Source of the DNA: Undaria pinnatifida
Taxonomy: Eukaryota > Sar > Phaeophyceae > Laminariales > Alariaceae
DNA: 64,000 nt
Direction: 5' to 3'
Assembly (NCBI GenBank): GCA_012845835.1
Contig: JABAKD010000026.1
Coordinates: 9,224,558 to 9,288,557, forward strand
Made by a program: the position numbers and the translations under genes. Of this stretch, positions 2,445 to 61,885 are shown piece after piece (within the stretch, counting starts at the first letter, position 1; every line of letters starts with the position of its first letter). The notes below the pieces were generated by a model. It was not told the origin of the DNA, did no database searches, and worked only from the letters and a program-made list of their open reading frames with translations.

Positions 2445-2590
2445 GAGACAAAGCACCGGGTATACCCTCCCGCGCCCCTCCCTCCCTTCCAAGCCGACTA
2501 AACATAACTATGCCACAGGTTTAAACTCCTTTTCCCCGCCCCACTACATGCCACAGGTTTAAACAAATGAAAATTATCATATAATACTGC
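2445..2590. repeat. Fragment of C-tract repeat family (51-52 kb family)
   Basis: Contains two copies of the string GCCACAGGTTTA next to 'gactaaacataa' and C-rich tracts, then an 'ataatactgc' stretch. The same word order recurs in the cluster at 51.2-52.3 kb. It lies directly upstream of the first long VPM copy. Confidence 0.6.
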
Positions 2591-3034
2591 AATATCTGTT
2601 GCGTTAAACCTGCCACTACTTCGTCCAGACCAAAGTATTTAATAAGCAGGCTAATCACATATACTAAACCTTCTTGTAACCTTTTATTTTGAGGCTTCAA
2701 CCCTAGCCTCGCGAAGTGTTTCTGTTCAACCCACATAGTGTAGAAAAGTAATGAATACACCCATAGTCAAACTATGACCAGTAACGGTATTATAACTAGA
2801 GTATGATACCACTACAACCCATAGTTGTCAAGGTTGGTTGTTGCATGTCTATCTCCAGGGATAAATATGCCATTAACCATACTCGACAAAAGCCGTGAGG
2901 GGAAACGTTGAAATCACCAAACGTCCCTCGCAACTTTTTTAGACCCCGGAAGCAGTTTTCTTGGCATATATCAATACGTTTTGCGGATATGCACAACAGC
3001 CCCCCCCCCCAACCACTGCAACCTAATATGTATT

Positions 3035-3480
3035 TGAAAACACCACTCTGAAACAACACGATAACGAAGTCTAAAACATCACCCAAAACATACACGTATA
3101 GCAACCACCACGCGAATACAAATTCGTGTTCAAAACCCCCACTCTGAAACAACACGATAACGAAGCCTAGAACATCAACCCGAAAAGAGCCGTGTAACAA
3201 CATCCACGCGGACAGAAAAAAAAAAAATTGAAAACACCATTCTGAAACAACACGATAACGAAGTCTAGAACATCACCCAAAACATACACGTATAGCAACA
3301 ACCACGCAAACACAAAATAATACGTGTTCAAAACACCACTCTGAAACAACACGATAACGAAGCCTAGAACATCAACTAAAACAACCGCGCGGACCCAAAA
3401 TAACACGTATTCGAAAACACCACTCTGAAACAACACGATAACGAAGTCTACAACGTCAACCAAGAATGCCCACACACTAA
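3035..3480 (+). repeat. ~100-bp tandem repeat (VNTR) of VPM copy 1, about 5 units
   Basis: Units start near 3039, 3137, 3233, 3332 and 3416; the spacing is 97-99 bp with one shortened unit. The core contains 'ACACCACTCTGAAACAACAC', 'GATAACGAAGTCTAGAACATC' split over the unit, and usually an ACACGTGT-like palindrome. The same array has about 6 units in copy 2 and 4 in copy 3. Confidence 0.9.
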
Positions 3481-6107
3481 AACCACATTCACGTCTACAT
3501 ACGGAACCCAGTCAAAAGATAGAACCGATGTACCCTGAATTCCAAATTGGGGTCCCTACGACTCGGAAACATCGCATAGTCTACATATAGTCTTTGCACA
3601 CACCTAAAATACGTCAAAACTGTTCGTTGCCAAATAACAGGCTCATTCATCAAGAACGCAAGAACAAACAGAACAAGAGACGAGGTAATCGTAGCAGCGC
3701 CCATCATTATAGCATTCGACCGCCATATCACCTCCTTTGCAATTGGTTTTAGGCATCAGCGAACTGGGTCCAACGCATGCCCGTAGTGTTTTAGGTGGAG
3801 TGAGGAGCGGTAGTAAAAATGAAGTGCGCTGCTCGATAACCTGTTCCTGACCGTCGGTATACTGAACAATCTTCGGGCCCCGTCTCCTCTGTATCAGGCG
3901 TTTGCGGAATTTTATTTGTCATTTTCAAGCAAGCGGTTGCGTTGACGTATACTACCTGGCTTGATGTAAAGGAAAGGAACACCACTCAGTGATCATCTAC
4001 TACACGCTTGGGCATGTTTTCATGAGCACCACTAACAAGAGCACCAGACATGGACGCGACATCGACAGGACCACAACATCTTCGACAACAGTGGGGAGAA
4101 AACAGGGGCGTATAATCGTACACTAGATAATAGCAATGTGAAAAATAAGTACAGAAAGTTATGTTAACACTGCGGTAGACCACACTACCAACCTATTACG
4201 CAGGGTATTTCGTGCTTCGGGCCTTTTGCATGATCGCCTGACAACCTCTACCAAACGAAGTAGCATATGCGTAACAAAGTAAAGTCACCCTCGCGTTTAA
4301 TAGTGGTGACATCGCATGCCCACGTCACCTCGATTGGTGTATTTATAAAACGTATCTCTGTCTTGGATTTGGCGACCTCAGAGCCCCACATTGGCACGGC
4401 AAAAATCATTGGCGTGAAATCGTATATGTGAGACAATAATACTGTGAAAAGGAGATACAGAGAGGTATGCTAAAATTGCGGTAAACCGCACTACTAACTT
4501 ATTACGTAAGGTATTCCGTACATACCGTCTGCATGATCGCCTCCCAACCCATGCCAAGCGAAGTATGACTAACGAAGTAACGTAATTGAGCGGGTGTACA
4601 CTAAGCGTTCCTTTCAAAACAATAACGATTCGCATCTCTCCCTGTCGTTCTCGATGGCGGTGAAATTGCATGACCATCACCTCGCCTGTTGTATTTGGCA
4701 ATATGCATCTCTTTCTCATAATTAGCGATGTCAGAAAATAATGATATCTACATGACTGTACCTATCAATTGAAATATTCTAGCTTTCGATCCATGTACAA
4801 CAACAACTTATGAAGCTATTAACACGTTGTTTACCACACCTAAGAGCTGGGTTGCATACTACATGTAACATCAAACCTTCTAGAAAAATAAACATTACCA
4901 GGCGGGTGATATAAAGGGGTGTCTTCTTGCTGCAACCGTCAGATTCGTCCCCTTCAAGGGTTTATAGTTTCCGCGCACATATTGAAATGCTCGCCCCCCC
5001 GCCCCCGGCCCCCCCCGATCCCTCTTGTTTAAGCGCACCACCTGAAATCAAAATCTGCCAGAGTGGTAAACACTACCAGCCAGCTGATATCATCTCATTA
5101 TCCATCTAGCCATCCATGCCGTAGCTCCAACTCATCTCCCCCCCCCCCCCCCCTTTGTTCTCCGCCCAGTTCGTTCAAACGCCCCACATACAATCGAAAT
5201 CGGCCAGAGTAATAAACACTAATAAGCCATTAATATCACGTCATTATCTTTCTAGCCATCTATGACGTAGCTTTCATTCATCCCCCCTCCCCCCCTCCAA
5301 CGCCCCCCCCTTCCCCACACCCCGCACGATCGCCTAGACCCAGCACCGCGCGTATAGTAGGCCCCTACATATACGATTAATACGCGCGATCGGAGGATCA
5401 CACACAATGTTGCGAACATCGGTGTCGACCAAGTCCTTGACTATAATATTTTATGTGACTTAAACCTCTTGAAAACCCTCCCCCCCCTCCCCGCGTTTTT
5501 TTTTTTTTTTCCCGCTTCCTTTTGCTTAAACGCCCCACCTACTATCGGAATCCGCCAGAGTAGTGAACACTTCCACGCCCTGGATATCGCCTCGTTATCG
5601 TTTCAGAGCCGTCCATGCCGCTGCTGCAAATCCCACCCACCCCCGTCCCCAACGCCCCCTCCTTCCCCACCACCCACACCATCGCCTAGACCTAGCACCA
5701 CGCGTACAGCAAACCCCTACATCCATGCGACCTAAAGCCCTCCCCCCCCGCCCCCGCCCCCCCCCCGCCACATTCCCCCCCCTCCCTCACAAGAAATATT
5801 TATAGTTTCCACGCACAAATTGACCTGCCCCACCCGTCCTCCCCCCCCCTCCCCCCTTCCTGCCCCCCTTATGATCAAAATCAGGCCCCCACGTCCTTGA
5901 AAACTCCGCCCTCCCCTCACCGGTTATTCGATTTACAGGATTCACTTGATAAACTGATGCATTTCCTTCCACAGCTGTCAGATTTTGTCCCCCTCAGAAA
6001 CGGGTTTTATAGTTTCCGCGCACAGACTGCCTAACATCACCCTGTTGACCCTGATAGCTAAACTGTAGTTGCAAGGGGAGTCGCCGACCTATATCCTTAA
6101 TGAGGAC

Positions 6108-6215
6108 ACACAACCCGTAATACGCGCGATCGGAGTATCACACACAGCTTGCAAATATGAGTTTCGACAAAATATTCGATCTCACAGCTGGAGTGTATTT
6201 CAATTTTTGTAAAAT
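6108..6215 (+). repeat. VPM terminal module M (copy 1)
   Basis: Ends the first long VPM copy. Plus-strand reading from ATG at 6157 begins MSFDKIFDLTAGVYF, and the minus strand is also open (VETHICKLCVILRSR). About fifteen copies or partial copies of this module occur in the window. Confidence 0.85.
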
Positions 6216-8433: not shown

Positions 8434-8541
8434 TTAGCTGGCTGGCTGCCTTCCTTCCTGCCTTCCTGACTGATTTCCTGCGTGCCTGCTTGCTTGCCTG
8501 CCTGCCTGTCTGCCTGTCTGCGTGCCTGCCTGCCTGCCTGA

Positions 8542-8576
<35 letters not shown>

Positions 8577-8725
8577 CGTGCCTGCGTGCCTGCGTGCCTG
8601 CGTGCCTGCCTGCCTGCGTGCCTGCCTGCCTGCCTGCCCTCCTGCCTGCCTGCTTGCCTGCCTGCCTGCCTGCCTGCCTGCCTGCGTGCCTGCCTGCCTG
8701 CCTGCCTGCCTGCCTGCGTGCCTGT

Positions 8726-8756
<31 letters not shown>

Positions 8757-8796
8757 CCGGCCTGCCTGCCTGCCTGCCTGCTTGTCTGCCTGCCTG

Positions 8797-8857
<61 letters not shown>

Positions 8858-18929: not shown

Positions 18930-19054
18930 CCTTGGAACGCTTTTTTTCCCATAACATCCTCCCGAAGCAGGTTTCTCGGAGTACATAAATGAGTTCTGCA
19001 AATATACACAACAGCCCCCCCTCCCAACCACTGTAAACCAGTATTTTTTCAATA

Positions 19055-19640
19055 ACAGAACTCTGAAACCACACGATAACGCAGTCTACATCATCAACCA
19101 AAACGTACACGTGTAGCAACAACCACGTGGACACAAAATGTTATGTATTCGAAAACACCACTCTTAAACAATACGATAACGAAGTCTAGAACATCAACCA
19201 AAACATACACGTGTAGCAACAACCACGAGGACACAAAATCATGTGTATTCGAAAACACCACTCTAAAACAATACGATAACGAAGTCTAAACATCAACAAA
19301 AACATACACGTGTAGCGACTACCACGAGCACACAAAATGTTATGTATTCGAAAACACCACTCTAAAACAATGCGATAACGAAGTCTGGAACGTCAACCGA
19401 AACATACACGTGTAGCAACAACCACGAGGACACAAAATAATATATTTTCGAAACACCACTCTGAAACAACACGATAACGGTGTCCAGAACATCAACAAAA
19501 ACATACACGTGTAGCAACAACCACGAGGACACAAAATAATATGTATTCGAAAACACCACTCTGAAACAACACGATAACGGATTCCAGAACATCAGCCAAC
19601 AATACACGTGTAGCAACAACCACGCGGACGCAAATTCTCA
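19055..19640 (+). repeat. ~100-bp VNTR of VPM copy 2, about 6 units
   Basis: Units begin near 19056, 19155, 19255, 19354, 19453 and 19553, a period of 99-100 bp. Each carries a TTCGAA-like palindrome before the start and ACACGTGT in the middle. The minus strand stays open across several units (repeating 'LLHVYV', 'VIVLFQSGV'). Unit lengths that are not all multiples of three argue against a real product. Confidence 0.92.
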
Positions 19641-20570
19641 AATCATAAGAATGACCGCACACTAAGACCACATACACGTTCACATACGAAACCCAGTCAA
19701 ACTATGGAACCCATATACCCTGGATTCCAAATTGAGGCCCCTACGAATCGGAAACATCGCATAGTTTACATATTGTCTTTACACACACCAAAAATGCTTC
19801 AAACCTGCTCGTTGCCAAATAACAGGTTCATCAAGAACGTAAGAACAACCAGAACGAGAGACGGGGTAAGCACAACAGCGCATATCATTATAGCATTCAC
19901 CCACCACATCACCTCCTTTGAAATTGGTTTTGGGCATCAGAGAACTGGGTTCAACGTATGCCCGTAGTGTCTTAGGCGGAGTGAGGAGCGGTAGTAAAAA
20001 TCAAGTGCGCTACTCGATAACCTGTTCCTGACCGTCGGTATACTGAACAATCTTCGGGCCGCGTCTCCTCCGTATCAGGTGTGAGAGGATTTTGTCGTTT
20101 TCAAGCAAGCGGTTGCGTTGACATATGCTACGTGGCTTGATGTAAAGGAAAGGAACGCCAATCAGCGATCATCTACTACACGCTAGGGCATGTTTTTATG
20201 AGCACCATAAACAAGAGCACCACACATGGACGCGACATCTACAGCACCACAACATTTTTGACGACATTGGGGAGAAAACAGGGCGCATAATCGTATACTA
20301 GATTATAATGTCAAAAAGAAGTACAGACAGGTATGTTAACACTGCGGTAGACCACACTACCAACCTACTGCGCAGGGTATTTCGTGCCTCCCGCCGTTTA
20401 CCTGATCGCCTGACAACCTCTACCAAACGCAGTAGCATATGCCTAACGATGTAAAGTAACCCCCGCGTTCAATAGTGGTGACATCGCATGCCCACGTCAC
20501 CTCGCTTGCTGTATTTGTATCATGTATCTCGATCTTAGAATTGGCGACCTAAGAGCCCCACATCGGCACG

Positions 20571-20744
20571 GAAAGGAACGCTTGGTGTACACGCGCTTAA
20601 TAACGTTTCTTCGTTAGTTATACTTCGCTTGGCATAGGTTGGGAGGCGATCATGCAGACGGTAAGTAAGTACGAAATACCCTACTCAATAAGTTGGTTGT
20701 GTGGTTTACCGCAATTTTAACATATCTGCCTGTGCTTCCTTTTC
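20571..20744 (-). other. Inverted 174-bp segment inside VPM copy 2
   Basis: Read on the minus strand, this segment aligns with plus-strand 59408-59576 (copy 3) and 4446-4615 (copy 1) along its whole length. It is bounded by GAAAGGAA and TTCCTTTTC, and the same short inverted repeats bound the non-inverted versions. Sequence on both sides resumes in normal orientation. Confidence 0.85.
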
Positions 20745-35129: not shown

Positions 35130-35605
35130 TCATTTTTTCTTTACCAAAACCGTCAGATTCATTTCCTTAAAAGGATTTATAGCTTCCACGCACAAATATC
35201 CCGCCCGTCCGCCCCCCCCCCCCTCCTTCCCCCCCCCCCTCCAATCCCGCTCGCTTATTATCAAAACCAGGCCCCCACGTCCTTAAAAACTCCGCCTCCC
35301 CCTCACCGGTTATTCGACTTACAGGATTCACTTGATAAACGGATACATTTTCTTCCACAGCTGTCAGATTTGGCCCCCCTCAGAAACGGGTTTTATAGTT
35401 TCCGCGCACAGACTGACTAACATCACCCTGTTGACCCTGATAGTTACACTGTAGTTGTAAGGGGAATCGCCGACCTATATCCTTAATGAGAACACACAAC
35501 CCGTAATACGCGCGATCGGAGTATCACACACAGCTTGCAAAGATGAGTTTCGACGAAATCTTCGATCTCGCAGATGGAGTGTATTTTCATATTTTTAAAT
35601 ATATC
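35130..35605 (+). mobile_element. VPM repeat, 5'-truncated copy (P + M, ~0.47 kb)
   Basis: Starts near the 'ACCGTCAGATT' word of a P module, continues through one poly(C) tract and a second P module, and ends with M (35497-35602; ATG at 35543 begins MSFDEIFDLADGVYF). No V part. The left edge follows a T-rich stretch. Confidence 0.8.
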
Positions 35606-42100: not shown

Positions 42101-43660
42101 CACGGTTGATATACTGCCCTCGCTGACACGGCTGCGTCGCAAAGCAGTGCTTTCGCTTTAAGGTTCGATTGCTGTTGATACACAGCTATACCTCGTAGCT
42201 CGTGATATACAGCTGTGCCATATAGTGCTAGATATGCTTCGCTCCGCTGATCGCAGTTGATATACCGCGCTGGTGATATGCAGTTGCGCCAAATAGACTT
42301 TTGCTTGGCGGATCTCGCAGTTGATAAACCGCCCTGGTCGACACGGCTGCATCGTCCAGAGATGCCTTTGCTTTAGGTTTTGATTGCTGTTGATTGGCAG
42401 CTATCCCGCGCTAGGGATATGCAGCTGCGCCAGATATGCTCTTGTTTTGCTGATCGCGGTGGATACACCACTCTGGTCTACACGGTTATGTCGTCCAAAA
42501 GAGATTTCGCTTCAGTTTTCTGATTGCTGCTGATATCTGGCTCGCCAGACGTTATTTTGCTTTGCTGATCGCGGTTAATATACAGTTGCACCAAATGCGA
42601 TTTTGTGTTGCTGGTTGCTATTGATTTACGGCCTTGGTGATAACAGCTGCGTCATATGTGCCTTTTTTTTGCTGGTCGCGGTAAATATACCGCTCTGGCA
42701 GTCACGACCGTGTCGTCCATCAGTGCTGTCGCTTTGGTGTCCTGGCCGCTGTTGATATATATTATAAAAAATGAAAATACACTCCAGCTTTGAGATCGAA
42801 GATTTCGTCGAAACTCATCTTTGCAAGCTGTGTGTGATACTCCGATCGCGCGCATTACGAGTTGTGTGTATAGCTGCGACAGTATGTTTTCGCTTGGCTA
42901 ATCGGGGTTGATACACCGCACGTTTGATATGCAGCTGTGCCAGATATACTTTTTTCTGTGGATCGTGGTTGATATACCGCTCTGCTCGACTCGTCGGTGT
43001 GGCCCAGAAGTGCTTTCGCTTTGCTGATCGCAGATGGTATACGACTGTGTTAGTCGTGTTCTCGCGTTGCCGATTGGTTTTGCGGCAGTGGGGACATACA
43101 CACATCATGGCCGGATGGGCCAAACGTGCTTTCTCTCTGCTGATCGCCATGGATGTACGGCTGTGCCGAATATGCTTTCGCGCTGCTGACCGCGGTTATA
43201 TCGCTCTGGTCAACACGACTGTGTCGTCCAGCAGCGTTTTCGCTTTGCTGCTCGGGGTTGATATGCGGCTGTGCCTGTTGTATTTTCGCATTGCTAAAAT
43301 TGCGGGCACGGTTGTACCTGAGGGTGTTGGTTTTGCCGATCGATGTTGATATACAGGGCTCGCAGATATCCTCGCTTTGCGGATCGCGGGGATATACCGC
43401 TCTGGACGACACGGTTGTGGCGTATTGAAGGGCCTTCGCTTTTCTGTTTTTTGACATACGCCTGGGCGGGTGTATTTTGCTTTGACGATACGCGTCTAGG
43501 CGATCTCGCTGGGCCGATCGCGATTGATGTACCGCCCTGGTCGACTGATCGCGGTTAACGTACCGCCCTGGTCGACACGGCTGCGTCGTCCAGCAGTGCA
43601 TCTGCTTCCTTGCCCGTGGTTGATACACGGCTGGGTTAGCTGTATTTTGCTTTGCTGATT
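36170..43660. repeat. Large minisatellite, ~138-bp unit, about 50 units
   Basis: Unit order: 'GCTGTTGATATACAGCT', 'ACCGCGCTGGTGATATACAG', 'CTGCGCCAGATATGCTTT', 'GCTTTGCTGATCGCGGTTGA', 'CACCGCCCTGGTCGACACGG', 'CTGTGTCGTCCAGAAGTGCT', then a T-rich linker. Three diverged copies of a ~24-bp GTTGATATAC subrepeat sit in each unit. The hairpin CGACACGGCTGTGTCG is kept in most units. Longer-range repetition is visible: 36.83-37.22 kb matches 37.50-37.90 kb, and 38631 matches 39225. Minus-strand frames of 60-190 codons are by-products. It could be a centromeric or subtelomeric satellite. Confidence 0.95.
42765..42870 (-). mobile_element. M-only VPM fragment inserted in the minisatellite
   Basis: On the minus strand this is the M module with its A/T-rich tail, truncated at 'acacacaa'. 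Removing it restores a normal minisatellite unit: left flank GCTGTTGATATA, right flank ATAGCTGCGAC, against the usual GTTGATATACAGCTGCGCC. No minisatellite sequence appears lost. Confidence 0.88.
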
Positions 43661-47812: not shown

Positions 47813-48325
47813 CGTGTGTTATTTCATTGTTTTTTATTTTATTTTATTTTCCAGGATTACTGCCGCGCTGAGCGCTTACCCCGGGCGAGACCCTCCTGCT
47901 TCGGGGCAGGAGGCCTCATCTAATCCAACACTTATTACTCTGCAGTCTATCATGCCAGGGTGCTTGACCTTCTCCTTCGATACATCTCTTAACTCCCTTA
48001 GTGATCAAACATCAATACTTGTCACGTACATCCGGGAGATGCACTCTGTTAATAGTCGGCTTTGTCGGCGTGTGTTATTTCATTGTTTTTTATTTTATTT
48101 TATTTTCCAGGATTACTGCCGCGCTGAGCGCTTACCCCGGGCGAGACCCTCCTGCTTCGGGGCAGGAGGCCTCATCTAATCCAACACTTATTACTCTGCA
48201 GTCTATCATGCCAGGGTGCTTGACCTTCTCCTTCGATACATCTCTTAACTCCCTTAGTGATCAAACATCAATACTTGTCACGTACATCCGGGAGATGCAC
48301 TCTGTTAATAGTCGGCTTTGTCGGC
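47813..48325. repeat. Exact 256-bp tandem duplication at the PLE fragment's 3' end
   Basis: 47813-48068 and 48069-48324 are identical by eye. The unit carries a perfect 8-bp-arm hairpin (CCTCCTGC / GCAGGAGG), a TTTTATTTTA run, and the outer part of the PLE 3' region shared with 55560-55700. Identity implies a recent event or homogenisation. Confidence 0.95.
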
Positions 48326-49017
48326 GAGTTTAAAAAAATGTTTTGAGGAAATTGTGGAGTTTGCTCCGCAAATGATCCTTGGCATAACCATGTCGAATCA
48401 TTTCCATCATCAACCAAGCTGCTGCTACCTGGAAGAGATCTTTTTTCGGGCACCTCATCGCAAATCGACAAAGTTAGCAATGGAGGGTCGCATACAAACA
48501 CTTTGAATAATCGCGTTCCAATGTGGGGGTATCTACGGTACTGCTTCAGTGTCTTCTATGTGGTCCCGTGTATCATTCATTCCAATTTGCGACACTCCAG
48601 GCGTACTTTGAAGTATTTCCACACCTAGGAATGGACTGTTTGCCCTCCTTGTTCTTTGGTGATAGATACAGGGTTCGCAACCTGCTCACCCTCGTCATCT
48701 CGGATGTGTTCCGGATTCATTCCACCATACATCCCCCCCTCCCCGCCTCCTTCCCGCGTAATAATTCGTTCAAAAGTAGGACATTTCCTGTTTGCCGATG
48801 CTACCGTTAGTATCTCTTGGTGCTACTGCCGTACACTGTTAAAAAAACTTTAAAGGGTAAAGAGCTTCAATGATATTTCTCATATCGAGCAAAATCTACT
48901 TATCAGAATTTTTAGGACATTGAGTTCATGCATGGACGCAAAATCGTTCGCAAAATCGGGTGCGGGTGCATTGCCCACGAATAGCCGGATGATTGCTAAT
49001 ATGCCACACCTCCAACA
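47945..49017 (-). mobile_element. Penelope-like element fragment, minus strand (3' part)
   Basis: Its reverse complement aligns with 54.8-55.7 kb of the larger PLE copy, with many substitutions and indels. It covers part of the reverse-transcriptase region, the C-terminal region and the 3' non-coding end; the 5' two thirds are missing. The truncated edge lies against a (TA)n run at 49018-49034. Frames are interrupted throughout. The end region is tandemly duplicated (separate entry). Confidence 0.85.
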
Positions 49018-49036: not shown

Positions 49037-49305
49037 GATAAAAGGATGCATTTCCCATCACAGCTGTCAGATTTTGTCCCCCTCAGAAACGGGTTTTATA
49101 GTTTCCGCGCACAGACTGACTAAAATCATCCTGTTGACCCTGATGGCTACACTGTAGTTGTAAGGGGAGTCGCCGACCTATATCCTTAATGAGGACACAC
49201 AACTCGTAATGCGCGCGATCGGAGTATCACACACAGCTTGCAAAGATGAGTTTCGACGAAATCTTCGATCTCACAGCTGGAGTGTATTTTCATTTTTTAT
49301 AATAT
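49037..49305 (+). mobile_element. VPM repeat, short 5'-truncated copy (one P module + M)
   Basis: Begins at 'ATAAAAGGATGCATTTCC' inside a P module and ends with M (49198-49305; ATG at 49245 begins MSFDEIFDLTAGVYF). TATATATATCG occurs on both sides and may be a target-site duplication, or a coincidence within the (TA)n run. Confidence 0.8.
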
Positions 49306-49475
49306 ATATATCGTGCACGTACACGTCGATCTAAAATTTCAATCTGCACCCCACCGCAAAAGCGCGATAGGTACCAGCAAGAATTTTTCAGTTGCTGGGG
49401 TGTTCGATGTCTTGCGCGTGCAATGTTTTTGCGACGCCTTGCCGCAACGTATGAGCTCCATTGCAATAATATGTA
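49306..49475 (+). repeat. Segment shared with 61566-61737 (left half of a split flank)
   Basis: From ATATCGTGCACGTACACGTC to the GCAATAATATGTA at 49463-49475 this follows 61566-61737 closely. Its continuation is found only after the next VPM insertion, at 50589. No gene. Confidence 0.85.
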
Positions 49476-50588
49476 CTCATCTCGCCCCCTCCCCCCCCCC
49501 CCCCTTTGTTCCCCGCCCAGTTGTTCAAACGCCCCACTAATAATCGAAATAGGCCGGAGTTTTAAACACTTCTAAGCTATTGATATCAAGTAATTATTTT
49601 GCTAACTATCCATGACGTAGTATTCATTCATCCCCCCTCCCCCCGTCCAACGCCCCCTTCTTCCCCACACCCCGCACGATCGCCTAGACCCAGCACCGCG
49701 CGTATAGCAAGCCCCTACATATATGATTAATACGCGCGATCGGAGGATCACACACAATGTTGCGAACATCAGTGTCAACCAAATCCTTGATCTCATAGCT
49801 GGAGTGTATTTTAATATTATATGTGACCTAAACCTCTTGAACCCCCCCTCCCCCCCCCCCCGCCCCATTTTTTTTTTTCTTCCCTCGCTTCCTCTTGCTT
49901 AAACGCCCCACCTAATAACGAAATCCGCCAGAGTGATAAACACTTCCACGACATGGATATCGCCTCGTTATTGTTTCAGAGCCGTCCATGCCGCTGCTGC
50001 AATTCCCACCCACCCTCGCCCCCGACGCCCCCTCCTTCCCCACCACCCGTACCATCGCCTAGACCACGCACCACGCGTATAGCAAACCTCTACATCTATG
50101 CGGCCTGAAGCCCTCCTCCCCCGCCCCCGCCCCCCTCCGCCGCATTCCTCCGCCCTCCCCCACAAGGAATATTTATAGTTTCCACGCACAAATTGACCTG
50201 CCCCATCCGTCCCTTCCCCCCCCTCCCCCCCTTCCGCCCCCCTTTTGACCAAAATCAGGCCCCCACGTCCTTTAAAACTTCGCCCTCCCCTCACCGGATA
50301 TTCGACTTACAGGATTCACTTGACAAACGGATGCATTTCCTTCCACAGCTGTCCGATTTTGTCCCCCTCAGAAACGGGTTTTATAGTTTCCGCGCACAGA
50401 CTGCCTAACGTCACCCTGTTGACCCTGATAGCTACACTGTAGTTGCAAGGGGAGTCGCCGACCTACATCCTTAATGAGGACACACAACCCGTGATACGCG
50501 CCTTCGGAGTATCACACACAGCTTGCAAAGATGAGTTTCGACAATATCTTCGATCTCACAGAGTGCATTTTAATTTTTAATATATGTA
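49476..50588 (+). mobile_element. VPM repeat inserted with 7-bp target duplication (P + M)
   Basis: Starts in a poly(C) tract, carries several P modules and an internal variant M (49726-49825), and ends with a terminal M (50484-50575) shortened by a small deletion, plus an A/T-rich tail. ATATGTA lies at 49469-49475 and again at 50582-50588. The uninterrupted target, with GTAGGTA in place of ATATGTA, is present at 61721-61750. This marks a real insertion with a fixed M end and a truncated other end. Confidence 0.85.
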
Positions 50589-50715
50589 TTGTATGGCATC
50601 ACGACTCACCCAACAGCAGTAATGTGGAGCGGATTTTGAGGTCAACTTACTGAGTACTGTATATGAATTAGTCTGCGCCCATCGTAACGTTAAGCCATAT
50701 TCAGTGGACATTTCA
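50589..50715 (+). repeat. Segment shared with 61738-61885 (right half of a split flank)
   Basis: TATGGCATCACGACTCACCC through the 'GCCATATTCAGT' region matches the sequence that directly continues the 61.6-kb counterpart, which itself has an extra ~25-bp internal duplication. No gene. Confidence 0.85.
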
Positions 50716-50719
50716 CCCA

Positions 50720-51000
50720 AACAGACGCAATTTCTGCTCTTGCGGTGGACTATCTACAAGTATCCACGCCCAAGTCCTCTCGAGTGTTTTGGCTGTGAAG
50801 GTTTCTCTTACCCAACCATGCAGGTGGGAAGTCATTCATTCATACTTCCATATTATATACGTGTGTTCGCGATCAAGATCCTTCAAGTCGATCGTTTTGG
50901 CTGTGAAGATTATATCTCACCCAGCAGTCCGCATGGGGAATCACTCGTTCTTTATGCCATATAACATTTATCGAGTCCCTTACGGATACTATCGTGACGT
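50720..51000 (+). repeat. Two-unit diverged repeat (~100 bp)
   Basis: 'CGTTTTGGCTGTGAAGATTA' and 'TGTTTTGGCTGTGAAGGTTT' head two similar ~100-bp stretches that also share 'CTCACCCA'/'CTTACCCA' and 'CATTC'/'CACTCGTTC' words. No gene. Confidence 0.55.
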
Positions 51001-51059
51001 GTGAAGAGTGGGTATATATATAATACGAATGGAAGTTCTACAAAGGCTGACAAAGTCAT

Positions 51060-52330
51060 AAAAAAGGGGGGCGGGAGGAAACCCGCTTCCAACCCCCCAC
51101 CTCCACCGCCCCAACACCCCCCCGCCCCCCTTTTTTGTTTTATTTTTTCTTCCCCCTCAACCCCCCCCCCCCCCTCCCGTTTGTCCCCCCGCTTTTTTAT
51201 TCCTTATTTACCCTCCTCACCGATTAAACAGAAATATGCCACATGCCTCAACACACATAAGAAGTATAGAATAATACTGCGGCCTTGTATACTCTCACCA
51301 CAAACTCACAACCCCCCCCCAGTAGATAAACAAGAGACAACGCATCGGATTCACCCCCCCGGCGCTCCTTCCTCCCTCCCTCCTTAGCCGATTGAACATA
51401 ATTACGCCTCAAGTTACATGTTTACCCTCCCCCGCTGCCTGACCGATTAAACATAATTTGCCACAGGTTTACTCACGTGAAACGTATGTTATAACACTGC
51501 GACCTTGTTGGAACCCGCAACCCCCCCTCCTCCCCCCAACGATGAAACAGAAACGATGAAACAGAAAAGTATGCGATTACACTGCGACCTTGTGTACCCC
51601 CACATAATTTAATTACCCCCCCTCGCTAACCTCCATCAACTTACGGTTAAATAGAAATGACCAAGGCTACGGTAGGGGGGGTACCCCCATTTTCACTGAT
51701 GTGTTTGTACCCCACGGATGAAGATGGTTTAGGCACTTGTTTTGGCGCAGCTTAGATCACCTTTGCTTTGCAGATTGATTTCGTCAATGTAAAACATGAA
51801 GAAAACGTAAGATCGCATAGGAACAAAGGGGTTACTCGCAAGAGTGACCCCTAGCCACTGAAATAAAAGTCCCTAAAGGGGACCCCCCTCCCGTAGCCTG
51901 GGTCAAATACCCTCAAGAAAATTAAGCCTTCCCCCTCCCTCTCCCTCTTCAGGTTACAGGTTTACCCTCCCCCGCTGCCTGACCAATTAAACATAATTTT
52001 GCCACAGCACACATGAAAACTATGTTACAACACTGCGACTTTGTATACCCTCGCGATAAACTGTTGTAACCCTCCCCCCCCCCCCCCCCGCAAAGATGAA
52101 ACAAAACGATGAGACAGAGACGGTGAAACAGAAACGACGAAACAGAAAAGTATGCCATTATACTGCGACCTTGTGTACCCCCACGCCAATTTAATCCCCC
52201 CCTCCCCCCCTCCTCCCCCTCTAACCCTCAACGGCTTACGATTAAATAGAAAATACACTCATAATTTATGCGCCCCCCCCCCCCCCCCCCCTCTCCCCCC
52301 CCCCCGTCCCGCTTTCATCTACCACACCAT
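51060..52330 (+). repeat. C-tract-linked repeat family cluster
   Basis: Repeated order: 'GATTAAACATAAT', 'GCCACAG', 'TTATAACACTGCGACCTTG', a C tract, 'GATGAAACAGAAACGA', 'AAAGTATGC', 'CACTGCGACCTTGTGTACCC', a C tract, 'TTACGATTAAATAGAAA'. Two long copies lie at about 51415-51660 and 51950-52260, with older pieces at 51210-51400. A relative precedes VPM copy 1 at 2445-2590. Poly(C) tracts reach about 20 bases. Confidence 0.8.
51658..51905. mobile_element. MITE-like element (248 bp) with terminal inverted repeats
   Basis: The left end (51658-51687) and the reverse complement of the right end (51878-51905) share TGACCMAGGCTACGGK followed by a G run and then CCCC. The interior is non-coding and contains two hairpins: GGGGTTACTC/GAGTGACCCC and GTCCC/GGGAC. 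The related C-tract copy at 52241-52260 reads TTAAATAGAAAATACACTC, without the element, at the matching spot. The target duplication is ambiguous because the site is A-rich. Confidence 0.8.
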
Positions 52331-52460
52331 GAACTTTACGACACACCATATTACACTTGGACGACCTGGTCTTTGGAAACCTGAAGACCTGATCACACAC
52401 CATCAGGAACTTGAAGACGCGTAACCACAAACAGTCAGTCATTTGTACCCCCGATCAATC

Positions 52461-52971
52461 ATGCCACGGATACGGGGTAAACGTAGACCCCCACGACCAT
52501 TTAAATGGGACGATGCATCTCCCTCAGGGATAATGCGAAATGCATTTGTACGAACTAGACAGGCAGTGATGTCTAACCATCCTTCGCTGAAAGGATTTGG
52601 AGGATTCGAAATGCTTGGTTGGCAAAGGGTAAGGGGAAAAGGGCGATTTGCCACCAGGAGCACTTTGTCAGCAAAAGAGTGGGAAAACATTTCATAAATG
52701 GCGAAATGTTCCCGGCCCAGGTGCAAGACGCCCAGTCGCTGACAAGGACGCATGTTCTATTTACGCTACAGTCCATTTGAAAAACAAGAAAACATACGTT
52801 GGACGAACGACCAAGAGCCCGTACGTTAGATTTCAGGAACATACTTCCACAACAGACGCTCTGGGTAGGGAAATCATGGTGGATCAAAACAAATTTGTAG
52901 TTGTTCTCCTTGAAATAGTTCCCCAGTTTGTAGGGGGTGTAGAGAACTCGGGGACACCACTCCATTGGTGA
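52461..52971 (+). pseudogene. PLE N-terminal part with GIY-YIG endonuclease
   Basis: From the ATG at 52461 the sequence reads a basic leader (MPRIRGKRRPPRPFKW). In the next frame a GIY-YIG module follows, with SIYATV, then TYVGR about ten residues on, then RFQEH. These match the GIY, YIG and Arg/His positions of the fold, which nicks DNA in PLE integration. The module lies ahead of the reverse transcriptase, whereas canonical Penelope elements carry it at the C-terminus. The two pieces are not in one frame. Confidence 0.8.
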
Positions 52972-52998
52972 CAAAGAGAAAACTCATGGATAAACCGA

Positions 52999-54032
52999 TT
53001 GCACACACGCACAAAAGGATACAATACACGTAGGGAAATCGCCAAGCCACAACTCCCGCAGATACCAACACATGGCTTTGGGATTAGACGCGTCAAACGC
53101 TCTAGGCACAAATCTCGTATTACAAAGATAACGCACAATAGACGGGTGTTTCTGTCTAGGGATTGGCAGCGTAGGATAAATTACTTTGCCGGACTTGTTA
53201 CTCATAGACCACACTTGGTGGATTCGTACATCTTGCACCTGGCCCCCAGAAACATGCTCCGCATGATCAAGTACAAAGGACAAAACATCATTCCCGGTAA
53301 CGTCCGAAAGGCTTTCAATGTACTCAGGAACCGCTACTTGATCTCGTTCGCGGCGCCTTCGGTCCAACCAGTGAAAGTACCCAAGTTAATCGTCATGGGA
53401 TTCACTAGTGAGATTGCCAACGTAGTCCCCCTGCGCGGATTACTGATGCGGCCAAATATAGGCTACCCGCTGAATGCGTTGGGTTTTGGGAGAGTATTAT
53501 GGAAACAATTCCATGTTTCAAGTATGGTGAGACCTTGGATAACTTCTTCCTCAATGCCAGCGCTGTAGCACGCGACATCAACCAGAATTTTCAGTGTATC
53601 TGCGGGAATTCTAGATGGTCTAAGATTGCCGTATGTATTAAGGATGGTTCCCTTTGTGCATTAACAACAGATGCAGAGTGCCTTAAGCAAGCCTTAAGCA
53701 GAAAGATGCTGAAGCCATACTGAAACTACAGGCCGGATTTAGATTAGATTATGCGGAGGAGAAGCATACAGCCCCATTTTATGTGCAAATGGTCACGGCC
53801 ATCGGGGAACATGTAGCCGAGATCTGCAGCAACTCAACAATCAACTACGTGGATACTTTAGACTGGAGGAACACGCTATTTGAAGAAATACGTAGGTGTT
53901 TAGAGTACGGAAAAGATGCTGCTGAAACACGTCCAGTAACAGGCAGCATCGACATTTCGGCAGCCAGATGCGCATTCAAACAGGCGCATAAAGTGTGGTC
54001 ATCACCAAAGTGGACAAAACAACAAACTGCCT
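52999..54032 (+). pseudogene. PLE middle region with CxC motif
   Basis: Open stretches in more than one frame. The first (52999-53568) is a basic region. The second (53499-53723) contains FQCICGNSRW, a CxC motif of the kind reported between endonuclease and reverse transcriptase in Chlamys/Naiad PLEs. The third (to 54032) leads into the RT region. The function of the CxC motif is thought to be zinc binding. Confidence 0.65.
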
Positions 54033-55566
54033 GAGCGTCATGTGGAAAGCCTGTTCTGTGAGAGTAGCCGCAGCAGAGTTGAGTGGTCCAGGATATACAC
54101 GAGTTGAGAGTGAAATGTTCCCAGACCTCATAGAGAAAATTACGACGAGGCAAATTACCTATCTGCTGAAGGGACATTTACCGATACCAATAGTCATGGT
54201 CAAAATCCAAGACGCTCAAAATCCACACAAGCACAAGTATGTCAAAAAGTACTCTACGCAGAAACCGGTTAGATACCTTATGCCCAAATTACACAAAGCG
54301 ATCCCAGCTTTCCAGGGTATCACAGCGTGTTGTGGCACAACCACAGAAGGCGTAGCTAAGATAGTGAATGCAGTACGCGTTGGCATCAGACCAGTACAAG
54401 ATGCTGTGTGCCGTGAATATGTATCCGTATTGGTTTGGTTGCAAACAAGTGTTGGATTACGTCTGGTGGGGCTGAGATAGTAGATGTTATGAAAGATTTG
54501 GATCACAAACCAGCGATGGCAAAAAACGGACTGCCTCACCACCAGGAAACGTTCGATTTTGTAGCCATGTATGCTAACATTCCAGTCAAACGTCTTAAAC
54601 GTATCATGGGCGAGTTACTGGACTTTGTATTCACGTACCAAGAAGCAAAAGAGGGTTTCAAATCGATGTACATTAAGTATGGGTTCAAATATGATGAAAA
54701 GGAACCGAAGATCAACGAAATACACTGGTCTCTCAACCCTCCTGTAAATACTAATGAAACGACCAACAACAAAAAGGAATTTATAGTTGGTCAAGCTAAA
54801 CTGTGTGAATGGATCAAGTTCGTATTAGACGAAGGGTTTGTACAATTTGGAGGAGCGGTGTATCAGCAATCATCGGGCATATTCATGGGCACTGCGCCCG
54901 CACCCAATTTTCCGAACGATTTTGCGTTCATGCATGACCTCAATTTCCGAAAAATTATGATGAATAGATATTTACTCGATACGACAAACAACATTGAACC
55001 TCTTTACCCTTTAGAGTTTATTGAACAATACGGCAGTAACACGAAGAGATTCATAAATAACATACTTACGGTAGCACCAGGCTTACCAAGTAGGAAGGGT
55101 CCTACGTTTGAACAAATATTAAGCTGCAAGAAGGGGAGGGGTGTGTGTGTTGGAATGTATCCGGAACACATCCTGAATGACGAGGGTGAGCAGGTTGCGA
55201 ACCCTGTATCTATCACGAAAGAACAAAGAGGGCAAACAGGGCATTTCCTGGATATGGAAATGTACTGCTGGAGTGTCGGAAATTCGAATGTTTGATAAAC
55301 GGGACCACATGGAGGCACTGAAGCAGTAGTACCGTAGGTACCCCCACATTGAAACACGATTATAAAAAAAGTCTTTGTACGCGACCGTCCATTGCCAACT
55401 TTGTCGATTTGCAATTAGGTGCTCGGAAATCCATTTCTTCCAGGTAGCAGCAGCTAAGTTGATGACGGACATGATTCGACATGTATGCCATGAAACGCTT
55501 GCGGAGCAACCTCCAAAGTTTCCGCTAAACATTTTTCAAAAACTCACCGATAAAGCCGACTATTAA
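53995..55566 (+). pseudogene. PLE reverse transcriptase and C-terminal region
   Basis: Recognisable RT landmarks: VDKTTNCLSV and YLMPKLHKAIPA (PLE RT start), FDFVAMYANIP (motif A region, one Asp present), VYQQSSGIFMGTAPAPN (motif B region) and KRFINNILTVA where the YxDD-like box should stand, without a visible acidic pair. The longest open stretch is 54435-55295. A C-terminal piece (55375-55566) with LMTDMIRH matches the minus-strand fragment at 48.3-48.5 kb. Catalytic activity is unlikely. Confidence 0.8.
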
Positions 55567-55700
55567 AGGAGTGCATGACCCAGTTGCACGTGAGAAGTAT
55601 TGGCGGTTGGTCACTGAGGGAGTTTGAGATGTATCGAAAGGGAAGGCCAGGCACCCTGGCATGATAGACTGCTGAGTGATGAGTGGGTACGTCTTGGTAC

Positions 55701-56519
55701 GTTACATGATTTCTAAGAATGAGCGATTGACTTGCAGAAGTTATATATAGAATTTCTGGGGATGGCCACTTCGCCTGTCACTCAAACGTTTATTGTTACA
55801 AAGTGTCATATAGAGAGATGCACAACCACCGTTTATGGGAATAGATAGATACATTTTGTTTTTTTGAGGGGGGAGGGTGTCTTCGTGAATAAGTGGAAAC
55901 GTAGTCACGTAGGCAGAGCCGTAGACACGATAGTATGAGAGTGTAATGCACCGTCGTACCTGAGTAAACAATGTGTGCAGGCATGTGAATTCGAGTTAAC
56001 CGGAAAAGGTGTGTAGATTACGTATGCTACTTTTGGATGTGTGTGGGTTGGGAACCGGGTACATATGAGTATGGGAGTGTGTATGGACTGTGCATGCCGA
56101 GTACTGGGTGTTTGTGGGTTGAAAAGAGGGTGTATATAAGCATGGAAGTGTTCAACCTACGTCCGTATGTTGCAAAGTCTGTATTAATACGTTCCCGAAG
56201 GCGTTACGATGCATCTGAGAATTACAAAAAGCGTTATTCACAAACAGTGTTTGCTTTAATATTGTTATGCATGGGTTATTTTGTCCCCTCGACGACGTCG
56301 ATTGAGGAATCAAAATTATAACCAAGAATTTCAGTTATACCAACGCAAAACATACATTCATGACGTACACATCAAACACGCTACCTAGGACCGGAATATT
56401 TCAGGAAATGAACAACGCCAACAATCATGCCAATACATGGTATATAAACGGAAACAACGAACGTTACTGAGTCAAAATCACGCCTGAATGCTAGAGCTAG
56501 TCGTCGGTTTGATTTATCC
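55701..56519. other. Unique DNA with a weak two-unit G/T repeat
   Basis: 'GTGTGTGGGTTGGGAACCGGG' region and 'GTTTGTGGGTTGAAAAGAGGG' region at 56038-56130 look like a diverged pair. No gene seen. Confidence 0.5.
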
Positions 56520-57515
56520 CCAATCATGTCATACATCGCCTAGACCTAGTACCACACGTATATCAAGCCTCTACATAAATGATTAATACGCGCGATAGGA
56601 GTATCATACACAATCTTGTAAAGATGCGTTTCGACCAAATCTTTCATGTCACAGCAGGAGTATTTTTTGCGACCTAAACCTCTTGAAACCCCTTTTCCCC
56701 ACACCCCCCTTTTTTTCCCCCCGCTCACTGTTGCCCAAACGCCCCATATTGAAATCCGCCAGAGCAATAAACACTTTCACGCACTGGATATCACTTCATT
56801 ATCTTTCGAGAGCCATCCATGCTGCTGCTGGAATTCACCCCCCATTCCCCCTCCCCTCCCGCCCCTCCCCTCTCGCCCCCAACGCCCCATCCTTTCCCAC
56901 CACCCGCACCATCCCCTAGACCTAGCACCACACGTATAGCATACTCCTAGATTATCGTGACCTAACCCCCCCGATCCCCCAACCCCCACCCCACACACAC
57001 CCTTCCCCCCCCCCCCCCACACTCCCACCACCCCACCCCACCCCCTCGAACACTCCGCCCTTTGCTCACTGGTTGTACGACCTACAGTATATACATGATA
57101 AACAGCTGCATTTTTCCAAAACCGTCACATTTTGTACCCTTAAAGGATGTGTAATTTCCACGCACAGATTGAGCTGCCCCCGCCCCCCCCCCCCACCCCC
57201 TTCATGATAAACTGGTGCGCTCTTTCCAAAACCGTCAGATTTACCCCCTTGGACGATTTATAGTTTCCACGCAAAACTTAAACTGCCCCACCCGTTTCCC
57301 CTCCCCCCCCCCCCTTCCCCGCTCCCTCGTGATCAAAACCAGGCCCCCACGTCCTTCAACACTCTGCCCTTCCCTCACCGGTTATTCGGCTTGCAGGTTT
57401 CACCTGATAAACTGATGCATTTCCTTCCACGAGTTTCATAGTTTCCGTACACAGACTGACTAACATCACCCTGTTGACCCTGATAGCTTCACTGTAGTTG
57501 TAAGGGGAGCCGCCG
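56520..57515 (+). mobile_element. VPM repeat, P modules without terminal M
   Basis: Carries an internal M variant (56578-56672), then P modules and long C tracts. It stops at GTAAGGGGAGCCGCCG (57499-57514), just before the point where a terminal M would begin. The next VPM copy starts a few tens of bases later, so this copy may have been cut by that insertion. Confidence 0.7.
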
Positions 57516-60500
57516 AAACCTTCCACAGCTCTTCACATGTCACCCGCCAACATGTCGGGATCCAGCGATCGCAGTGATTAAACACCTACGACTTCGTCCA
57601 TATCAATGTACTCAATAGGCAGACTACCTATATATAAACGCTTTCTTGTAACCCCCCCCCCCCTTTCTTTTTTTAGAACCCTAGCCTTACTCCGTATTTG
57701 GATTCAACCCACACCGTGTAGCAAAATAATAATAGGCACATAGTCAACCTATGAAGAGTAACGGTATAATAAGTGTATTATGATACCGCTACAACCCACA
57801 GTTGTCAAGGCTGGTTATTACATGTTTGTCTTCAGGGATAAAATATGCATTTAACCATATTTGACAAAAGCCGCGAGGGGGAACCTTGAGCTTCCCAAAT
57901 ACCCTCGTAACTTGGTTTTTAGCCCCCCGAAGCAGTTTTCTCGGCGTACATAAATACGTTTTGCAGATATACACAACAGACCCCCCCCCCCCTCCCCCAA
58001 CCAATGTAAACCAATATGTATTTGAAAACACCACTCTGAAACAACATGATAACGAAGTCTAGAACGTGAACCAAAATGTACACGAGAAGCAACAACCATG
58101 AGGAAACAACCCAATATGTATTCGAAGACACCACTCTGATGAAATACGATAACGAACTCTAGAACATCAACCAAAACGTACACGTGTAGCAACAACCACG
58201 CGGACACAAAATAATATGTATTCGAAAACACCATTCCGAAACAACCCAACAATGAAGTCTGGAACATCAACCAAAACATATACGTGTAGCAACAACCACG
58301 CGGAAAGACCACTTTGAAACTATACGATAACGAAGTGTAGAACATCAACCAGACACACTAAAACCACGTATACGTCCACATACGAAACCCAGTCAAAATT
58401 TGGGACCCATATACCCTGGATCCCAAATTGAGGCCCCTATGAATCAGAAACATACATAGTCTACATAAAGTCTTTACAAAAACCTAAAGAGCGTCAAAAC
58501 TGCTCGTTGCCAAGTGACAGGTTCATCAAGAACGCAAGAACAAACAGAACGAGAGACGGGGTAATCGCAGCAGCGCAAATCGTTATAGCATTCGCCCACC
58601 ACATCACCTCCTTTGGAATTGGTTTTGGGCATCAGCGAACTGGGTCCAATGCATGCCCGTAGTGTCTTTGGTGGCGTGAGGAGCGGTAGTAAATATCAAG
58701 TGCGCTGCTCGATAACCTGTTCCTGACCGTCGGTATACTGAACAATCTTCGGGCCGCGTCTCCTCTGTGTCAGGTGTGTAAGGAATTTCTTTGTCATTTC
58801 CAAGCAAGCGGTTGCATTGGCATATACTACCTGGCTTGATGTAAAGAAAAGGAACACCACTCAGCAATCATCTACTACACGTTAGGGCATGTTTTTATGA
58901 GCACCACTAACAAGAGCACCAGATATGGACGCGACATCTACAGGACCACAGCATCTTCGACGACAGTGGGAAGAAAACAGGACGTATAATCGTACACTAT
59001 ATAAAAATAATGTGAAAAAGAAGTACAGACAGATATGTTGACACTGCGGTAAACTACACGACCAACTTACTACGCAGGGTATTTCGTGCCTCCATCCGTT
59101 TGCATGATTGCCTGTCAACCACTACCATACCACACGCAGTAGCATATGCCTAACGAAGTGAAGTCACCCTCGCGTTCAACAGTGGTGACATCGCATGCCC
59201 ACGTGAGACAACCTCTACGAACGCAGTAGCATATGCCTAACGAAGTAAAGTCACCCTCGCGTGAAATAGTGGTGACATCTCATGCCCACCTCGCTTGCTG
59301 TATTTGTACGGTGTATCTCTGTCTTAGGATTGGCGACCTCAGAGCCCCACATCGGCACGGTAAAAATCATGGGCGTGAAATCGTACATTTGAGACGCTAA
59401 TAATTTGGAAAGGAAGCACAGGCAGATGTGTTTAAATTGCGGTGAACCACACTACCAACTCATTACGTAGGGTATTTCGTACATACCGTCTGCATGATTT
59501 CCTCCCAACCTATTCCAAGCAAAGTATGACTAACGAAGTAACGTAATTGAGCGCGTGTACACCAAGCATTCCTTTCAAAACGCTGACGATTCGCATTTCT
59601 CCTCTCGTGCTTAGTGGCGGTGACATTGCATGACCACATCATCTCGCCTGTTGTATTTGGCAATACGTATCTCTTTCTCATAGTTTCTATCTTTGGATCC
59701 ATGTACAATGACAAATTACGAAGATTTAACACGTTGTTTACTACACACCCAAACACTGGGTTTCATACTGCATCTAACATCAAACCTTCTAGAATAGTAA
59801 ACATTACCCGGCAGATGATATAAAGGGATGTCTTCTCGCTACAACCGTCAGATTTATCTCCTTCAAGGAATTATAGTTTCCGCACACATATTGAAATGTG
59901 CCGCCCGCCCCCCCCACCCCTCCTCCAATCCCTCTTGTTCAAACGCCCCACCCCTTCCCCGTCCCCCCTCCCCCGATTCCACTTGTTCAAACGCCCCACC
60001 TAAAATCAAAATCTACAGAGTGGTAAACACTACCAGCCAGCTGATATCATCTCATTATCTTCCTTGCCATCCATGCCGTAGCTCCAATCCATTCCCTCCC
60101 CCCTGCCCCCCTCATTCCTTTACTTTTACCGCCCAGTTTGTTCAAACGCCCCACTTGAAATCGAAATCGACCACCGTAATAAACATCTCTACGCAGTTGA
60201 TATCACGTCATTGTCTTTATAACCATCCATGACGTAGTTTTCATTCTTCCCCCCCCCCTCCAACCCCCCCCTTCAACGCCCCCTCCTTCCCCACCACCCG
60301 CACGATCGCCTACACCCATCACCACGCGTACAACAAGCCCCTACATACATCGGATCTCACAGCCGGTGTGTAATTGAATATTATGTGACCTAAACCTCTT
60401 AAAAAACCTTCCCCCACTCCCCCTCTTCCCGCCCACCCCTTTTTTGTTTTTTTTTTCTCGCTCTTCCTTGCTCAAATGCCCCACCTAATATCGAAATCCG

Positions 60501-61562
60501 CCAGAGTAATAAGCACTTCCACGCACTGGATATCACCTCATTATCTTTATAGAGCCATCCATGCCGCTGCTTCCCACCTCTCCCCTCCCCCGCCCCCAAC
60601 GCCCCCTCCTTCCCCAACACCCGCACCATCGCCTAGACCTGGCACCACACGTATAGCAAACGCCTACATCTGTGCCACATAAAACCTTCCCTTCGCCCCC
60701 CCCCCACCCCACCCCCCCCCTCCCTCTCCCCCACCCCCCACCTCAACGCCCCCTCCTTCCCCACCACCCGCACCATTGTCTAGACATAGCACCACACGTA
60801 TAGCAAACCCCCACCTAAAGCCCTTGCCTCCCCCCCCCCGCCCCCTCCCACCTCCCCCCCCCCCTCTCCCACCCCCCACCTCCCCACCCCCCCCACCCCA
60901 CCCCACCCCCACCCCCGGAAACACTTCGCCCTCTACTCACTGGTTGTACGACTTACAGGATGTACATGATAAACTGGTGCATTATTTCCAAAACCGTCAC
61001 GTTTATCCCCTTAAAAGAATGTATAGTTTTCACGCACAGATTGAGCTGCCCCACCCGCCCCCCCCTCTGATGATAAACTGGTGTTTTTATTTTATTTTGT
61101 AAAACCGTCAGATTTATCCTCTTCTTGAAGGATTTACAGTTTTTACGCACAAATTGAGCTGACCCGCCAGTCCCCCCTCCCCCCTTCCCCCCCCACACCC
61201 CCCCCACTCCCGCTCTTTTTTGATCAAAACCAGGCCCCCACGTCCCTAAAAACTCCGCCCTCCCCTCACCGGTTAATCGAATTACAGGATCCACTTGACA
61301 AACGGATGCATTTCCTTCCACAGCTGTCAGATTTTGTCCCCCTCAGAAACGGGTTTTTTAGTTTCCGCGCACAGACTGACTAACGTCACCCTGTTGACCC
61401 TGATAGCTACACTGTAGTTGCAAGGGGAGTCGCCGACCTACATCCTTAATGAGGACACACAACCCGTGATACGCGCGATCGGAGTATCACACACAGCTTG
61501 CAAAGATGAGTTTCGACAAAATATTTGATCTTACAGCTGGAGTGTACGTTCATTTTTTATAA
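57516..61562 (+). mobile_element. VPM composite repeat, long copy 3 (longest, ~4.0 kb)
   Basis: Homology to copy 1 starts by about 57577 ('GATTAAACACCTACGACTTC' against 'TTAAACCTGCCACTACTTC'). Parts: 5' region, VNTR (58015-58350), single-copy part (58350-59820) with the invariant 48-bp block at 58708-58755, P modules with many C tracts (59825-61450) and M (61455-61562). An extra ~60-bp duplication around 59200-59270 repeats 'CGCAGTAGCATATGCCTAAC'. A short minus-strand frame (58604-58867) is shared in part with copy 1 but is not evidently selected. Confidence 0.75.
58015..58350 (+). repeat. ~100-bp VNTR of VPM copy 3, about 4 units
   Basis: Units begin near 58027, 58128, 58227 and 58309, the last one shortened. 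Same core words as in copies 1 and 2. Confidence 0.9.
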
Positions 61563-61885
61563 TAATATATATCGTGCACGTACACGTCGATTTAAGATTT
61601 TAATCTGCACCCCACCGCGACAGCGCGATAGGTACCAGCAAGAACTTTTCAGATGCTCGGGATGAGCAATATCTTACACGTACAATGTTTCTGCGGCGCC
61701 TTGCCGCAACGTATGAGCTCCAGTGCAATAGTAGGTATAGTATGGCATCACGACTCACCCAACAGCAGTACGATATCACGATTCACCCAACAGCAGTAAT
61801 GTGGAGCGATGTTTGGGATACGTTAACAGAATATACGAATTAGTCTGCGCCGAACGTGACGTGAGGCCATATTCAGTTCAGGCGC
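61563..61885 (+). repeat. Uninterrupted flank shared with 49306-49475 and 50589-50715
   Basis: Contains both halves of the segment that is split at the 49-50 kb locus by a 1.1-kb VPM insertion. The target position reads GTAGGTA at 61731-61737. An internal ~25-bp duplication repeats 'CACCCAACAGCAGTA'. Confidence 0.88.

Follow-up and report, generated by a model that had tools for sequence, protein, structure and literature searches.

A C-rich repeat of the kelp Undaria pinnatifida is very probably part of a Penelope-like retrotransposon family with coding and non-coding copies

The window analysed here, a 64,000-nucleotide stretch of the Undaria pinnatifida genome (assembly GCA_012845835.1, contig JABAKD010000026.1, positions 9,224,558 to 9,288,557 of the forward strand), carries several copies of a repeat that is named VPM after its modules V, P and M, of which M is the terminal one. 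In the original prediction, which was made from the window sequence without database searches, VPM was taken for a composite, non-coding retroposon that borrows the machinery of a long interspersed nuclear element (LINE), as the primate SVA elements do. While a comparison of the window with itself bears out the repeated modules, searches of the whole assembly (511,146,479 bases in 68 contigs) lead us, with high confidence, to regard VPM as part of a Penelope-like element (PLE) family with an N-terminal GIY-YIG endonuclease (a Chlamys-like order), in which there are both coding copies and a lineage without an open reading frame (ORF) that is probably mobilised in trans. These genome searches score the best candidates only, and the locus counts given here are therefore incomplete. 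The features of the window are listed below, where X is the head that precedes V, M' is an internal partial M, and RT, UTR and LTR stand for reverse transcriptase, untranslated region and long terminal repeat.

2410..6215, + strand: ORF-less class-1 copy, 5'-truncated inside X (part of X, then V, P and M), 89-93% identical to ten other copies
about 18958..22158, + strand: divergent V-P-M copy, 5'-truncated in V (77-80% identity in V, middle and P, 88% in M)
23108..23405, - strand: M fragment adjoining the P-M copy at 23412..24209 (window comparison)
23412..24209, - strand: P-M copy, 5'-truncated in P (window comparison)
35137..35602, + strand: M copy, 5'-truncated near the P/M border (88% identity)
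42759..42869, - strand: final 110 bp of M (92% identity)
48185..49015, - strand: inverted piece from the RT region of another coding copy (80% DNA identity to 54847-55685)
49037..49305, + strand: upstream 5'-truncated M of the coding copy, a pseudo-LTR-like partial unit (window comparison; M probe at 96-100% in 28 rows)
49306..49475, + strand: head (5' end) of the coding copy, part before the nested insertion (90% identity to 61565-61737)
49478..50587, + strand: nested 5'-truncated P-M insertion in the head, with an ATATGTA duplication of about 7 bp (unfilled relative at 61727-61770)
50591..52451, + strand: head of the coding copy continued, and 5'UTR (71-83% identity to locus L054)
52452..53565, + strand: ORF remnants in several frames, with the GIY-YIG endonuclease within 52633-52968 (PF01541)
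53992..55292, + strand: ORF remnants, with the RT-like segment at 54417-55292 (RT by motifs, no library match)
55293..56500, + strand: 3'UTR after the ORF, present in 37 other places
56535..57516, + strand: P-like stretch and internal partial M (M') of the coding copy (sequence comparison)
57578..61564, + strand: V-P-M tail of the coding copy, the third long copy of the original prediction (V, middle and P 76-78%, M 88% identical to copy 1, that at 2410..6215)
61565..61880, + strand: start of the next unit's head directly after M, a tandem remnant (90% identity to 49306-49475; 76-93% to 50579-50705)

Searching the genome with a 1-kb probe of V gave 40 places over many contigs, the window copy counted, and the other 39 were found at 86-95% identity, with nine of the 40 rows beginning inside the probe at positions 85-441. 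Ten further copies (the e-series), obtained from elsewhere in the genome via V alone and with both ends included, have 5' starts scattered across a range of more than 1.2 kb and are no longer homologous beyond the unit, and nine of them possess the common 3' end ...GATCTCACAGCTGGAGTGTATTT..TATAATA. Moreover, the match to a 439-bp probe (M plus its downstream sequence) stops at query position 268-290, which is the end of M, in 28 of the 40 main rows (96-100% identity; three additional short rows are excluded), and continues into the head of the next unit in the remaining 12, two of which lie in the window. The claim that several copies share one 3' module and start at differing internal points is thus borne out by both the window comparison and the ten genome copies. 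The three long copies on which it was built are real as a repeat, though the first has to be redrawn to 2410-6215 instead of starting at 2590 (in comparisons with seven loci, homology sets in at 2410 for six and at 2465 for L007), the second to about 18958-22158, and the third (57516-61562) turns out to be the tail of a coding copy. Likewise, the stated lack of a long reading frame holds for copies 1 and 2, neither of which has an ORF of at least 150 residues; in the third, one 165-residue TTG-start frame lies on the minus strand at 57851-58348.

Upstream of V, we noticed that in three of the ten copies (e2, e5 and e8) a 5'-cut M is joined at its normal 3' end (TATAATATA) directly to the head X, within which are two tandem sub-repeats, followed by V, P and M; in copy e3, M is also found upstream, but across a different junction. 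Longer copies read [truncated P/M]-X-V-P-M. Because a truncated M and X precede V in e2, e5 and e8, the full class-1 unit is X-V-P-M, about 4.8 kb, and longer than VPM. A probe spanning the M|X junction found 40 places, some being the same copies as in the V set, and these divide into 25 class-1 and 15 class-2 heads, the latter diverging from class 1 after probe position 512. The 5' edge could be estimated in 26 of 30 head loci (L054-L057 are uninformative for its position), where its distance upstream from the probe start ranges from about 0 to 983 bp, at widely differing points within the upstream M or P. On contig C61, two heads are 5.2 kb apart. As a separate observation, a 1620-residue open frame with Copia-type domains (RVT_2, 144.6 bits) is located upstream of copy e5 (L012:5139-9998, minus strand).

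The stretch from 49037 to 61564 in the window is one decayed coding copy, which reads, in order, M, head, ORF remnants, 3'UTR, P, M', V, P and M. Among the five class-2 heads that were fetched, L054 and L055 lead into a GIY-YIG ORF, and in L056, L057 and L058 X runs to V without one. The endonuclease domain (PF01541) scores 25.9 bits in the window copy and 23.5-24.3 bits in L054, against a cut-off of 22.6. Protein searches of the genome returned 68 rows for the endonuclease and 147 for the RT-like segment, the latter with open frames of up to 1100 residues, and all of these rows enter the neighbour counts. Chlamys-type PLEs, a clade reportedly defined by Craig et al. in 2021, carry the endonuclease N-terminal to the RT, and the Undaria family agrees with this order: an RT-like row lies 1.4-2.2 kb downstream on the same strand of 46 of the 68 endonuclease rows (22 of the 27 best), and in none of the 68 is it found upstream only. 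In fact, a single 1100-residue open frame on contig C22 holds both the endonuclease and the RT-like segment, and the L054 head lies about 3 kb upstream of its RT-like row. The RT-like segment of this copy, in locus L059, contains FMGTAPAPDLANDFAFMHE and RFIDDIL, which we take to be RT motifs, though library, PDB and fold searches gave no confirmation. Since the window copy has FINN at the position of the FIDD in L059, it looks inactive as judged by its sequence.

Two side observations concern these coding copies. L054 and L055, 14.8 kb apart on C22, are 99.4% identical together with their flanks and represent a recent segmental duplication, with the RT row near L054 being open (the 1100-residue frame) and that near L055 interrupted by stops. 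In eight places (e.g., C30:693670 and C37:1606037), the match is confined to residues 1-31 of the endonuclease query, at 84-87% identity, and these places are perhaps another class of deletion derivatives that keep the start of the ORF.

To follow the tail, a 2.7-kb probe taken from after the window ORF was used; its 106 rows, all of them used, fall into 39 places, of which 38 contain the 3'UTR and one has V-side rows only. In 36 of these 38, window included, M'-V follows the 3'UTR on the same strand, so that V normally belongs to the tail of the coding copies. L056 and L057 also have the M'-V junction that is seen at about 57516, and for this reason the third VPM copy is ruled out as an independent nested insertion at that point. 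Here, coding copies are best explained by a layout in which the head and the ORF (the endonuclease preceding the RT) are followed by the 3'UTR, P, M', V and a second P with the terminal M, and VPM, in turn, by the roughly 4-kb non-coding 3' tail of such copies together with ORF-deleted derivatives. The free-standing composite of the original prediction is not supported, given the head X and truncated M upstream of V, and the tail that is shared with coding copies.

The copy at 2410-6215 is best explained as belonging to a separate lineage without an ORF, of structure X-V-P-M and about 4.8 kb in length. None of the 40 V copies most like copy 1 has any of the 147 listed RT rows nearby, and the same is true of all 25 class-1 heads, as compared with three of the 15 class-2 heads that do. 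Between copy 1 and the coding-copy tail, M is 88% identical, whereas V, the middle and P are 76-78% identical, which would fit M being under selection as a recognition signal.

At the insertion sites, A+T makes up 72.5% of the eight bases that precede the 5' edge, in comparison with 53.3% in the nearby flank (25 loci, p = 4e-6); the idea of an AT-rich flank came from other loci, from which the 25 tested are separate, but the eight-base measure was chosen after their flanks had been viewed. Omitted from this test are L029 and L032 (the loci of e2 and e5), L055 (the duplicate of L054), and L056 and L057 (where the homology extends past the end of the locus). The nested insertion at 49478-50587 has ATATGTA (about 7 bp) on both sides, and a related sequence at 61727-61770 is unfilled. 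Otherwise, target-site duplications are short and mostly unresolvable. Of the fixed 3' ends, scattered 5' ends and short duplications that the original prediction had expected, the first two are therefore seen (nine of ten copies and 28 of 40 rows for the 3' end), while the duplications are weak, with one clear pair.

A PLE, and not a LINE/SVA-type system, is indicated by the partial-tandem structure, by the GIY-YIG domain that the coding relative carries and by insertion at AT-rich sites. For ORF-less copies such as 2410-6215, the best reading is accordingly that of non-autonomous PLEs mobilised in trans, and not of LINE-driven SVA analogues; the suggestion of a non-autonomous retroposon that uses another element's machinery stands insofar as the common 3' ends, scattered 5' ends and probable trans movement of the ORF-less form are concerned, with a partner other than a LINE. 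In the mechanism that we propose, the protein of the partner would recognise the common 3' end on an RNA with units in tandem, nick an AT-rich site and prime reverse transcription there. Reverse transcription would often pass through one unit into the next and stop at random, and this would leave either a [5'-truncated partial unit]-[unit] arrangement or one 5'-truncated unit. Going a step further, and with slightly more doubt than belief, we envisage the ORF-less X-V-P-M as a dedicated and recently active non-autonomous kelp PLE lineage, multi-kilobase and ribozyme-free, with a dimer RNA as template and only M needed for recognition.

Several observations weigh against assignment to the PLEs or against parts of it. 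Even at E up to 10, searches of Pfam, NCBIfam and PADLOC gave no match to the RT-like segment; it has one weak match in PHROGs (function unknown, E 0.094) and none among the PDB sequences, and its structure model is unusable (pLDDT 33). Copy e9 lacks the common 3' end, as its unit match stops in P and the motif occurs only internally, in an inserted stretch. Two of the 38 3'UTR places, C21:6020288 (its match ends at position 694) and C30:10902222, have no M'-V row, and the terminal M of coding copies is directly observed in the window copy only. Relaxed Rfam searches of the window, L054 and L029 found no hammerhead ribozyme, which some PLEs have, and the RNA structure of M over 43 copies is not convincing (alifold -18.7 versus -11.3 for 30 shuffles, s.d. 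3.8). In a survey of target duplications in 15 copies, the mean match was 5.2 as against 4.0 for mispaired ends, and four of the 15 lack a duplication of at least five bases; the weak signal may perhaps stem from the element's own TATAATA end. Moreover, trans mobilisation is something we infer from structure alone, and M as the recognised signal and the enzymology are likewise inferred.

Primate SVA elements have a VNTR, a composite non-coding body, 5' truncation and movement in trans, the last of these driven by LINE-1, and they end in a poly-A tail. VPM is alike in its VNTR, non-coding body and 5' truncation, and probably in its movement in trans, and a free-standing composite retroposon moved by a LINE would equally be expected to show the truncation, the VNTR and a common 3' end. 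However, the same tail is found on a coding element with a GIY-YIG endonuclease, the likely partner thus being a tail-sharing PLE, and it is this coding relative that made us drop the analogy; a truncated copy of the units' own 3' end also stands before them, and that end is TATAATA instead of a long poly-A (no separate search was made for LINEs with this tail), all of which renders the SVA-like reading very unlikely. That the ORF-less copies are dead deletion products, copied along by other events and without trans-mobilisation, agrees with the structural nature of the evidence for movement in trans, yet the ten class-1 copies differ in their 5' ends and flanks, as fits independent ORF-less insertions, and a listed RT is near none of the class-1 heads; we consider this unlikely too, if a shade less so.

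The presence of M on both sides of X-V-P in several copies could, in turn, suggest an LTR-type or retrozyme-like element, with M as a true terminal repeat and the 5' scatter as the result of decay. Here, the upstream M or P is cut at differing points among copies, whereas the outer edge of an LTR would be fixed, and this scatter, together with the absence of a hammerhead from the window, L054 and L029, led us to drop what is a highly improbable explanation. That VPM is a satellite-like tandem repeat which owes its spread to unequal exchange or segmental duplication, and not to retrotransposition, strikes us as scarcely credible, and its dispersed copies with unrelated flanks refute this as the main process: the L054/L055 duplication with its flanks (99.4%) and the paired heads 5.2 kb apart are in keeping with it, but the 40 V places are dispersed over many contigs, the ten copies examined have scattered 5' ends and no homology outside the unit, M ends at a single point in 28 of 40 rows, and there is a filled and empty pair of sites.

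Apart from the PLE family, the window contains a satellite-like array at 36565-42187 (similar motifs extend to about 45441) that is composed of 138/227-bp units from the motifs GTTGATACACCGCC and GTCGACACGGCTGTGTCG, a 1.4-kb GTA/AGT trinucleotide array at 196-1612 with a similar array near another VPM copy in L006, CTGC repeated about 130 times consecutively at 8438-8962, and a tandemly duplicated 256-bp unit at 47813-48326 with 100% matches.

As an element, the Undaria family belongs to a known class, the PLEs, and what is unusual is the length of its tail, its VNTR make-up and the size of its ORF-less unit. MRC1 of Chlamydomonas is likewise a non-autonomous, PLE-dependent element, and such elements are short or ribozyme-bearing, in contrast to the Undaria ORF-less unit of about 4.8 kb, for which our searches found no ribozyme. 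Animal retrozymes, which are named in PMC8969392, resemble the Undaria units in being ORF-less and thought to rely on PLE proteins. According to the same source, PLEs are 5'-truncated upon insertion, and the second copy of a tandem is usually 5'-truncated too, forming a pseudo-LTR. Partial tandems are also reported in PMC3846280, along with insertions having short target duplications and one that occurred by microhomology without any, and PMC11167929 describes a tandem or partial-tandem organisation, cleavage of AT-rich DNA by two PLEs and a C-terminal endonuclease. The Undaria family thus resembles the Penelope/Poseidon PLEs in its partial tandems with a 5'-truncated copy, its AT-rich targets and perhaps its variable or absent target duplications (PMC3846280, PMC11167929), but differs from them in that their GIY-YIG is C-terminal (PMC11167929), rotifer pseudo-LTRs are about 0.2 kb, and some have a hammerhead. 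In Ectocarpus, three Chlamys-type families are described, and reported as the first in the supergroup (PMC12477816); these share with the Undaria family a brown-algal host and a GIY-YIG and RT-like segment in one ORF, while the Undaria family may differ from them in its roughly 4-kb C-rich, VNTR-bearing tail and its ORF-less lineage. The layout, said to have no known parallel, hence matches the partial-tandem layout of PLEs, a class already reported in a brown alga. Our literature search, with subscription journals mostly outside its coverage, found among the matches listed neither a PLE in Undaria or any other kelp nor a comparably long VNTR-bearing non-autonomous PLE.

Within an Undaria assembly of which 36.1% was classed as unknown repeats (PMC7058681), an unexplained C-rich kelp repeat becomes an identifiable retrotransposon family with a probable partner. 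PLE transposition is described as poorly understood (PMC11167929), and the near-identical 3' ends, the coding and ORF-less forms, and the conserved end on diverged bodies make this family a good natural case in which to study what end of an RNA is recognised by the protein of a PLE.

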